Source: Amia ocellicauda
Taxonomy: Eukaryota > Chordata > Actinopteri > Amiiformes > Amiidae
Assembly: GCF_036373705.1 (NCBI RefSeq)
Contig: NC_089851.1
Location: 1,885,001-1,949,000 of the forward strand
Direction: 5' to 3'
Length of the DNA: 64,000 nucleotides
Each line of letters begins with the position of its first letter. The stretch's first letter is position 1. The notes beneath the pieces are model-generated. The model worked only from the letters and a program-made list of their open reading frames with translations. It did no database searches and was not told where the DNA came from. This document shows, piece after piece, positions 53,500 through 64,000 of the stretch. The translations under genes were made by a program, and so were the position numbers.

Positions 53500-54340
53500 T
53501 ATCTCTCCAATTCCCATCCTGCTCTCTCCTTCCTTGCCTCCTTTGCCTCCCTAATCCCTTGAACCTCATCTCTCTGCCTCTCACCTGCTCCTCCCTCCCC
53601 TCTGTTCCCCTCTCTGGAAGCCACTCAGCTTCCAACAAGGCCAACTTCATCTCCGCTTTTGCCTCCCACCACTCTCTGGATTTCCTCGCTCTCACTGAGA
53701 CATGGATCTCCCCTGAGAACTCAACCACCCCTGCTGCCCTATCCTCTCTGTTCGTCCTGTCCCACTCCCCTCGTCTAACCAGTCAGGGAGGAGGAACAGG
53801 GCTCCTGCTCTCCCCTTCTCTCCTCTTCTCTGTCCCCCCTTTCTTTCCTCTATCACGACTAACAGCATTGAATTCCACACTGTGGAACTCACCTCTCATT
53901 CTCACCTCTTCTTTCTAGTTCTCTTCTGTCCTCCCGGTCCACTCGTCTCCTTCCTGGATGAATTCAACTTTCTTCTCTCCTCCCTCCCCTCACTGTCCTC
54001 ACCTACCATCTACAGTATCTCTCCAACCCCTCCCACTCTGCCAGATTTCTTTCCCTCCTTCACTCCTTTAAATTCTCTTTCTCTTTGTCTCCCTCCACTC
54101 ACAGGGCAGACCGCCAGCTAGACCTCATCTTCTCTAGAGGCTGCTCCCCTTCGACACTCTCCGTGACACCCATGGACATCTCAGACCACCACTTCATCTC
54201 CTTCTCCTTTTCCCTCCTCTGCCTCCCCACTCCACCCACTCCCTCTGTCACCTTAAACCATAATCTCCGCTCCGTCTCCCCCTCCAACCGGGCCTCCACT
54301 GCCTTCACTATCTTACCTTCCATTGACTGTTTTTCCCATC
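53500..54340 (+). mobile_element. L2-like LINE, 5' half (endonuclease)
   Basis: Encodes ISAFASHHSLDFLALTETWI, then RLTSQGGGTGLLLS and RQLDLIFSRGCS ... DISDHHFISF, the APE endonuclease of fish L2/CR1-group LINEs, with frameshifts. It stops at a TA (54341-54342) where Tc1 copy 2 begins. The continuation is found in reverse at 61899-62652. Confidence 0.82.
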
Positions 54341-54342
54341 TA

Positions 54343-55930
54343 CAGTGAGGGAAAAAAGTATTTGATCCCATGTTGATTTTGTACGTTTGCCCACTGACAA
54401 AGAAATGATCAGTCTATAATTTTAATGGTAGGTGTATTTTAACAGTGAGAGACAGAATAACAACAAAAAAATCCAGAAAAACGCATTTAAAAAAAGTTAT
54501 ACATTGATTTGCATGTTAATGAGGGAAATAAGTATTTGACCCCTTCGACTTAGTACTTGGTGGCAAAACCCTTGTTGGCAATCACAGAGGTCAGACGTTT
54601 CTTGTAGTTGGCCACCAGGTTTGCACACATCTCAGGAGGGATTTTGTCCCACTCCTCTTTGCAGATCCTCTCCAAGTCATTAAGGTTTCGAGGCTGACGT
54701 TTGGCAACTCGAACCTTCAGCTCCCTCCACAGATTTTCTATGGGATTCAGGTCTGGAGACTGGCTAGGCCACTCCAGGACCTTAATGTGCTTCTTCTTGA
54801 GCCACTCTTTTGTTGCCTTGGCTGTGTGTTTTGGGTCATTGTCATGCTGGAATACCCATCCACGACCTATTTTCAATGCCCTGGCTGAGGGAAGGAGGTT
54901 CTCACCCAAGATTTGACAGTACATGGCCCCGTCCATCGTCCCTTTGATGCGGTGCAGTTGTCCTGTCCCCTTAGCAGAAAAACACCCCCAAAGCATAATG
55001 TTTCCACCTCCATGTTTGACGGTGGGGATGGTGTTCTTGGGGTCATTCCTCCTCCTCCAAACATGGCGAGTTGAATTGATGCCAAAGAGCTCGATTTTGG
55101 TCTCATCTGACCACAACAATTTCACCCAGTTCTCCTCTGAATCATTCAGATGTTCATTGGCAAACTTCAGACGGGCCTGTACATGTGCTTTCTTGAGCAG
55201 GGGGGCCTTGCGGGCGCTGCAGGATTTCAGTCCTTCACGGCGTAGTGTGTTACCAATTGTTTTCTTGGTGACTATGGTCCCAGCTGCCTTGATATCATTA
55301 ACAAGATCCTCCCGTGTAGTTCTGGGCTGATTCCTCACCGTTCTCATGATCATTGAAACTCCACGAGGTGAGATCTTGCATGGAGCCCCAGACCGAGGGA
55401 GACTGACAGTTATTTTGTGTTTCTTTCATTTGCGAATAATCGCACCAGCTGTTGTCACCTTCTCACCAAGCTGCTTGGCGATGGTCTTGTAGCCCATTCC
55501 AGCCTTGTGTAGGTCTACAATCTTGTCCCTGACATCCTTGGACAGCTCTTTGGTCTTGGCCATGGTGGAGAGTTTGGAATCTGATTGATTGATTGCTTCT
55601 GTGGACAGGTGTCTTTTATACAGGTAACGAGCTGAGATTAGGAGCGCTCCCTTTAAGAGAGAGCTCCTAATCTCAGCTCGTTACCTGTATAAAAGACACC
55701 TGGGAGCCAGAAATCTTGCTGATTGATAGGGGATCAAATACTTATTTCACTCATTAACATGCAAATCAATTTATAACTTTTTTGAAATGCGTTTTTCTGG
55801 ATTTTGTTGTTGTTATTCTGTCTCTCATTGTTAAAATACACCTATCATTAAAATGATAGACTGATCATTTCTTTGTCAGTGGGCAAACGTACAAAATCAG
55901 CAGGGGATCAAATACTTTTTTCCCTCACTG
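54343..55930 (-). mobile_element. Tc1 (DD34E) transposon, copy 2
   Basis: Full length, 1588 bp, with CAGTGAGGGAAAAAAGTATT at both ends in inverse orientation, TA on each side. The two flanks do not belong together: left is LINE sequence, right is the inverted receptor block. An ordinary insertion would leave one interrupted target. Confidence 0.92.
54550..55563 (-). pseudogene. Tc1 transposase, copy 2, nonsense mutation
   Basis: Same DD34E family as copy 1. The frame from the ATG at 55563 is broken by TGA at 55436-55438, where copy 1 has TGG (KWKKHK). A 267-residue frame with the whole catalytic domain remains open from 55353. It lacks the 4-base deletion of copy 1. Confidence 0.9.
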
Positions 55931-56219
55931 TATGAAAATCTTCTGTAAGTTAATCATTCAGTGTTTATAGCTTGGTAATTAAACATTTACCAACCACCAT
56001 TGTTGTACCCAAACTGTCACTAACTGGCAGCACCAAGGCAGGAATCGTATTGTTATTTTTGTATTACTTATTATCTCAGTTGATTAACTGTTATAAACTG
56101 GGGAGGGTGAAGAATGAAAAATCACAGATTTCTAAACATAAAGTATACATTAGAAACAAAACAAGACTGGTGCATGAATGTCTTCACTGTGTCTGCTTTC
56201 TCAGTGCTTTGCCTTCCAG

Positions 56220-62964: not shown

Positions 62965-62972
62965 TATAAAAG
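62965..62972 (+). promoter_or_regulatory. TATA-like box of the Tc1 transposase
   Basis: TATAAAAG, 50 bases before the transposase ATG at 63022, inside the right arm of the palindrome; its mirror in the left arm faces outward. Confidence 0.5.
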
Positions 62973-63021
62973 ACACCTGTCCACAGAAGCAATCAATCAA
63001 TCAGATTCCAAACTCTCCACC

Positions 63022-63992
63022 ATGGCCAAGACCAAAGAGCTGTCCAAGGATGTCAGGGACAAGATTGTAGACCTACACAAGACTGGAATGGGCTACAAGA
63101 CCACCGCCAAGCAGCTTGGTGAGAAGGTGACAACAGCTGGTGCGATTATTCGCAAATGGAAGAAACACAAAATAACTGTCAGTCTCCCTCGGTCTGGGGC
63201 TCCATGCAAGATCTCACCTCGTGGAGTTTCAATGATCATGAGAACGGTGAGGAATCTGCCCAGAACTACACGGGAGGATCTTGTTAATATATCAAGGCAG
63301 CTGGGACCATAGTCACCAAGAAAACAATTGGTAACACACTACGCCGTGAAGGACTGAAATCCTGCAGCGCCCGCAAGGTCCCCCTGCTCTAGAAAGCACA
63401 TGTACAGGCCCGTCTGGTGTTTGCCAATGAACATCTGAATGATTCAGAGGAGAACTGGGTGAAATTGTTGTGGTCAGATGAGACCAAAATCGAGCTCTTT
63501 GGCATCAATTCAACTCGCCGTGTTTGGAGGAGGAGGAATGACCCCAAGAACACCATCCCCACCGTCAAACATGGAGGTGGAAACATTATGCTTTGGGGGT
63601 GTTTTTCTGCTAAGGGGACAGGACAACTGCACCGTATCAAAGGGACGATGGACGGGGCCATGTACCGTCAAATCTTGGGTGAGAACCTCCTTCCCTCAGC
63701 CAGGGCATTGAAAATAGGTCGTGGATGGGTATTCCAGCATGATAATGACCCAAAACACACAGCCAAGGCAACAAAAGAGTGGCTCAAGAAGAAGCACATT
63801 AAGGTCCTGGAGTGGCCTAGCCAGTCTCCAGACCTTAATCCCATAGAAAATCTGTGGAGGGAGCTGAAGGTTCGAGTTGCCAAAGAGGAGTGGGACAAAA
63901 TCCCTCCTGAGATGTGTGCAAACCTGGTGGCCAAATACAAGAAACGTATGACCTCTGTGATTGCCAACAAGGGTTTTGCCACCAAGTACTAA
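63022..63992 (+). pseudogene. Tc1 transposase, copy 3, multiply broken
   Basis: Starts [21 protein letters not shown] one-base deletion near 63287 shifts the frame, TAG at 63390-63392 replaces a lysine codon, and a 48-base in-frame deletion near 63884 removes [20 protein letters not shown] residues between VRVAK and EEWDK. The catalytic residues ([21 protein letters not shown]) remain. Confidence 0.9.
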
Positions 63993-64000
63993 GTCGAAGG

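Follow-up and report, generated by a model that had tools for sequence, protein, structure and literature searches.

A Tc1-bounded inversion in an immune-receptor cluster of the bowfin Amia ocellicauda

Receptor tail blocks, the two halves of a LINE and two opposite Tc1 transposons lie together in a window of 64,000 nucleotides, C2:1885001-1949000, in the 988 Mb genome of Amia ocellicauda. The sequence read amounted to 203 kb, made up of the window, 60 kb to its left and 79 kb to its right. The sole N run of the window, a gap of 200 N at 22428-22627, separates the stretches 3999-22427 and 22628-41034, which are the same sequence except for one base and the length of one TA repeat. With these as the only differences across the gap a large direct duplication was ruled out, and the two stretches are read, on sequence grounds, as the dovetail overlap of two contigs left unmerged. 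Because of this overlap the real receptor tail blocks of the window number two, here termed A and C. The first-pass annotation had proposed a duplicated receptor block; A and C do represent inverted copies of such a block, while the big direct repeat is to be ascribed to the assembly. The 18.4-kb false duplication (3999-41034) doubles the genes and transposons that it encloses, and the NCBI receptor model P0121 is truncated beside it. An Rfam scan at the gathering threshold gave no match.

Block A (1-5835, minus strand) is by comparison with C the un-inverted paralog and contains an empty TA at 5834-5835. A harbours a V-set domain by Pfam, and its exons match P0121, annotated by NCBI as 'polymeric immunoglobulin receptor [Amia ocellicauda]', at 93-100%. 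That P0121 ends mid-tail is expected if the gene model was cut by the N gap. A stretch of 119 bases just past a tail exon of A (4224-4342) is missing in C, and P0121 ends inside it. In block C seven exons of a pIgR/CD300-like receptor were placed by eye on the plus strand at 56219-59819; they encode a transmembrane segment and a cytoplasmic tail with tyrosine motifs, each is open in one frame, and on its strand the block holds transmembrane and tail exons only. When tail C was searched against proteins of 0.55-1.75 times that length, P0121 was again the sole match. Gene A and tail C are thereby classed, by domains and likeness, with the pIgR/CD300-like receptors, which combine a V-set ectodomain, a transmembrane segment and a tail. 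No match was found in a search of the literature for the polymeric immunoglobulin receptor in bowfin (Amia).

By likeness, the 203 kb contain six distinct V-set exons on the minus strand, at 15.7, 18.7, 19.6, 51.1, 64.5 and 65.3 kb, three of which occur again through the contig overlap, and five on the plus strand at 92.5-136 kb. The tail exons of C, on plus, thus lie amid minus V-set exons on both sides of the segment, and are headless because the ectodomain is on the opposite strand. Strand alone is no proof of inversion, since the V-set exons are plus from 92 kb on. A tail-less receptor model of the same chromosome, P0125, was considered as the lost ectodomain of C beyond 64000; it was dropped as lying elsewhere, because its only matches of at least 90% in the 203 kb were A's own exons (91-95%).

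The two Tc1 copies, T2 and T3, pair as inverted repeats of 98-99% identity. T2 is a full-length copy at 54343-55930 with its transposase on the minus strand and at least one nonsense change in it. A TA dinucleotide stands on the LINE side (54341-54342, by sequence comparison) and another on the receptor side (55931-55932), the latter having its counterpart in the uninterrupted TA 5834-5835 of block A. T3, on the plus strand, extends from 62655 past the window end at 64000 and breaks off within its right terminal repeat at 64076. It is preceded at 62653-62654 by CA, a changed TA, and the same CA is present at the LINE junction of A to the left of the window. The target site duplication is accordingly seen as TA on both sides of T2 and as CA on the left of T3, whose right end is lost; T3 has no clean right end because it is cut off at 64076. 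The transposase frame of T2 matches the Pfam domains HTH_Tnp_Tc3_2 (E 4.6e-24) and DDE_3 (E 7.2e-16), so that T2 by Pfam, and T3 by its likeness to T2, are classed as DNA transposons of the Tc1/mariner group. Impala and Sleeping Beauty are also members of this group. A search with the Tc1 end in viral_contigs gave no match. A second transposon, distantly Tc1-like and with an open frame of 346 aa, lies at 14376-15614 and has four more copies within the 203 kb; since pairs are 98.4-99.3% alike, the family is regarded as young. To the left of the window, at window positions -34163 to -27354, is a tandem repeat array of 6.8 kb whose shifted copies are 87-91% alike.

Between T2 and T3 lies the segment 55933-62652 (minus, flipped relative to block A), which consists of tail block C and the 3' half of a LINE, a non-LTR retrotransposon. 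The 5' half of a LINE, a degenerate endonuclease part recognised by the Pfam domains of its relatives, adjoins T2 from outside (plus strand, from approximately 53500 to 54340), and the 3' half, delimited by sequence comparison, reads in reverse down from 62652 to 61890 on the minus strand and ends in (ATT)n. When the halves are joined with the TA counted once there is no frame shift, and the reading frame gives DCFSHL up to the join and SVNC beyond it. A protein search with the joined halves retrieved 143 relatives, and the join was checked in the 120 of these that were listed: 74 align across it with 15 residues on each side, 63 of them gapless and 11 gapped there. The protein P0078 of Amia calva has DCFSHLSVNC at this place. 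A second LINE copy about 78 kb to the right of the window (142215-141409) also passes through the site, with gaps, in a comparison for which the join used was three bases short. Relatives of the joined LINE carry PF03372/PF14529; the LINE piece of the window itself gave no Pfam match. Because the join with a single TA stays in frame, the two halves are, judged by their sequence, one element. The first-pass annotation had proposed precisely this for the LINE ends outside T2 and inside T3, and its wider anatomy of Tc1, LINE and receptor pieces was likewise borne out, all elements being present and their ends lying within one or two bases of those first given.

Blocks A and C align over A 1-5841 against C 61645-55924 in inverted orientation, A being partly repeated at 22628-24470. 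Their homology stops at the TA 5834-5835, the TA beside the intact end of T2, and in block A this site holds no Tc1. The site is likewise free of Tc1 in D, a third paralog of this chromosome (C2:2319559-2319981), which lacks eight bases including the TA. The sequence 5780-6480 used as a query gave seven matches, namely A twice, D in two pieces, the T2 side of C and, elsewhere, two of 41 bases; none of the seven was the flank of C itself beyond the TA. Two opposite Tc1 copies thus bound an inverted segment of 6.7 kb, and the hallmark of a transposon-made inversion, opposite copies at both breakpoints with exchanged flanks, is found here. Un-inverting the segment restores the LINE, gives C the orientation of A and, together with what follows T3 on the right, reproduces the order of A. 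The first-pass annotation had suggested from the window alone an inversion whose two breakpoints coincide with Tc1 ends, the first within the LINE and the second within a receptor copy, at the TA corresponding to 5834-5835; on these points the comparison agrees with it. The bowfin case is a real Tc1-bounded inversion and is of a known kind.

To the right of T3 the same reading had predicted TA followed by the sequence from 5836 onward, in plus orientation, and had named unrelated sequence there as evidence against it. What was predicted is absent: T3 is cut at 64076 and is followed by sequence from A 14103. Taken literally, the prediction failed, and by the refuting outcome named beforehand this weighs against the model; the flank is nonetheless receptor sequence in the predicted plus orientation. 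In that orientation 64077-64357 corresponds to A 14103-14383 with 97.9% identity, and 64350-64741 to A 15641-16034 with 96.7%; A carries a transposon of 1.24 kb between these two stretches. The matching flank totals 281 + 394 aligned positions and ends at 64741, past which there are only V-set exon likeness and repeats; a stop and a frame shift interrupt the V-set exon that the flank contains. After un-inversion, C and A are collinear across the 0.67 kb that can be matched right of T3. Missing at C are the right end of T3 and the equivalent of A 5836-14102, and the joint between the T3 end and A 14103 shows a microhomology of 7 bp, ATTTTTT. Since the flank belongs to a part of the same receptor gene that lies further along, and has the predicted orientation, the gap is read as a deletion and the inversion was kept. 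We infer that a microhomology deletion, later than the inversion, removed the right end of T3 together with the gene segment next to it.

The likeness of A and C is uneven along their length. Among 5693 aligned sites no substitution was found over the last 1779, against 51 in the rest, and as long a substitution-free run arose in none of 20000 shuffles. The near-identical arms are 1-1780 and 59867-62652, the latter a tract of 2.8 kb. Left of the window the LINE 3' half is still closely alike, differing by 3 substitutions and a few small gaps; at the Tc1 end the likeness breaks off, and the next approximately 204 bases contain 11 differences. The arms therefore show a mosaic likeness, as from gene conversion, that ends at the Tc1 end. 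The 2.8-kb tract is probably younger than the split of T2 and T3, because it is far less diverged than the 1.6% by which they differ. Next to the LINE half left of A, at window positions -1407 to -993, is a 415-base remnant of a third Tc1 whose flanks do not match each other. Its near end is the transposase 3' end, whereas in C it is the 5' end, and its far side adjoins a different reverse-transcriptase fragment and not the LINE 5' half. A conversion or crossover starting in the terminal repeat would explain these mismatched flanks.

The kinship of the two bounding copies was assessed in an alignment of T2 and T3 with 58 other copies, 38 and 20 from two match lists, and with T1 of the window. 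Copies were chosen by likeness to the 5' end of T3 or to the interior of T2, from 1737 and 3420 first-look candidates, and the sample omits 18 of the 40 best matches to the T2 interior. Trees were made of 39 and 59 rows, two copies shorter than 1300 bases being left aside; the bootstrap had not settled and its values are rough. T2 and T3 are sisters in both trees, and in the tree of 59 copies they form a clade with a support of 100/99, on a stem of roughly 0.0074 and with tips of roughly 0.0052 and 0.012. They agree with each other against the majority of the 59 others at 12 sites. Their state is found in no other copy at sites 640, 1065 and 1125 (0/55, 0/58 and 0/58), in a single copy at 814 (1/57) and at 287 (1/55), in 2/57 at 485 and in 3/57 at 858, while the remaining five sites are commoner variants (5 to 17 copies). 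Among the 59 others, each copy has at most one of the states at 287, 485, 640, 814, 1065 and 1125. Alone, T2 departs from the majority at 10 sites and T3 at 15.

Between T2 and T3 there are 23 differences in 1424 sites, a distance of 1.6%, and these are evenly spread, the longest identical run of 158 being reached in 18069 of 20000 shuffles, so that a partial conversion tract between them is not apparent. In the list of matches to the T2 interior (671 bases) T2 itself ranks first and T3 11th. Comparison by thirds with the 59 other copies, a weak test, placed other copies nearer to T2 than T3 is in two of the three thirds; chimerism in this weak test was nowhere clear, and the picture was partly mixed. 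The rare changes are shared, yet the two copies are now 1.6% apart, and a daughter insertion would look the same as a hybrid-element insertion. The sisterhood of T2 and T3 holds within the sample, in which a whole-length conversion between them would look the same, and most likely both are offspring of one Tc1.

We therefore favour, with a rough probability of 0.7, the reading that a Tc1 in a LINE beside a pIgR-like gene inverted 6.7 kb up to a TA in the gene, and that both present copies descend from this one element. At the start a single Tc1 would have lain inside the LINE next to the receptor gene, and it would then have flipped the 6.7 kb that separated it from the TA within that gene. 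A one-step aberrant transposition takes about half of the weight of this explanation; the insertion of a daughter copy at the receptor TA, followed by crossover with its parent, takes somewhat less. The microhomology deletion would have come afterwards and removed the right end of T3 with the adjoining gene segment. A fuller form of the one-step route is tentative: ends from two sister chromatids may have been joined to a TA 6.7 kb away, splitting the receptor copy, and a later conversion stopping at the Tc1 end may have kept the flipped arm near-identical to its paralog.

The first-pass annotation had instead envisaged a crossover between two separate Tc1 insertions. If two unrelated opposite copies had crossed over, T2 and T3 would be reciprocal chimeras and would owe their likeness to later gene conversion. 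The geometry fits such an event exactly, the two inverted blocks, A and C, show conversion-like mosaicism (0 over 1779 against 51), and T2 has relatives nearer than T3 in two of the three thirds. The sister clade and the rare changes shared across sites 287-1125 nevertheless weaken it, and with differences so evenly spread the conversion must have spanned nearly the whole element long ago; we regard this origin as unlikely. It would be more surprising still if the assembler had been led by the inverted Tc1 copies to flip the 6.7 kb. Such an error could be suspected from the unmerged 18.4-kb contig overlap, which ends 13 kb from T2, and from the near-identity of A and C over 2.8 kb, but there are 23 differences between T2 and T3 in 1424 sites, two contigs agree along 18.4 kb, more than the 9.7 kb from T2 to the end of T3, and the cut end of T3 has no counterpart in a simple flip. 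We give slightly less credence again to there having been no inversion at all, C being an inverted duplicate of A's tail that was copied as far as a break within a Tc1. In keeping with a copied arm, A and C form inverted repeats and share the altered target site as well as the LINE 3' half; such an arm does not, however, predict that one LINE half abuts T2 and the other T3, at opposite Tc1 ends of one site, nor that the receptor gene goes on to the right of T3 in the orientation of A.

Descent of both copies from one Tc1 may be compared with inversions known from other organisms. The Galileo inversion 2z3 of Drosophila buzzatii has chimeric copies and is taken as ectopic recombination, whereas identical copies, both from one site, would denote the insertion of a hybrid element (PMC2775673). 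By this criterion a common origin of T2 and T3 is indicated, with neither full identity nor clear chimerism. Galileo 2z3 resembles the bowfin case in that two opposite copies of a DNA transposon stand at the breakpoints with their target sites exchanged; it differs in that the Galileo copies are chimeric, while T2 and T3 group as sisters among the sampled copies, and in that non-inverted chromosomes were sequenced, while the un-inverted order in bowfin comes from paralogs (PMC2775673). Galileo belongs to the P superfamily with target duplications of 7 bp, and the bowfin element is a Tc1 with TA. Hybrid-element insertion or alternative transposition, as described for the P element and maize Ac/fAc, likewise leaves like copies bounding an inversion, the ends of two copies acting together (PMC8225341). 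The maize cases were found in marked lines, whereas the bowfin event is old, with T2 and T3 1.6% apart, and its un-inverted donor is unseen. Impala and Sleeping Beauty are named in the same paper among the elements with aberrant transposition events (PMC8225341).

Inversions made by transposons are well known; at this locus one can read where the breakpoints lie, what the un-inverted order was, as judged from a paralog, and how the two bounding copies are related. Setting the kinship of bounding copies against the genome-wide family provides a simple test between a crossover of unrelated copies and events that arise from a single element. The locus is an immune-receptor cluster of a holostean fish, in which one element can separate a receptor tail from its ectodomain.
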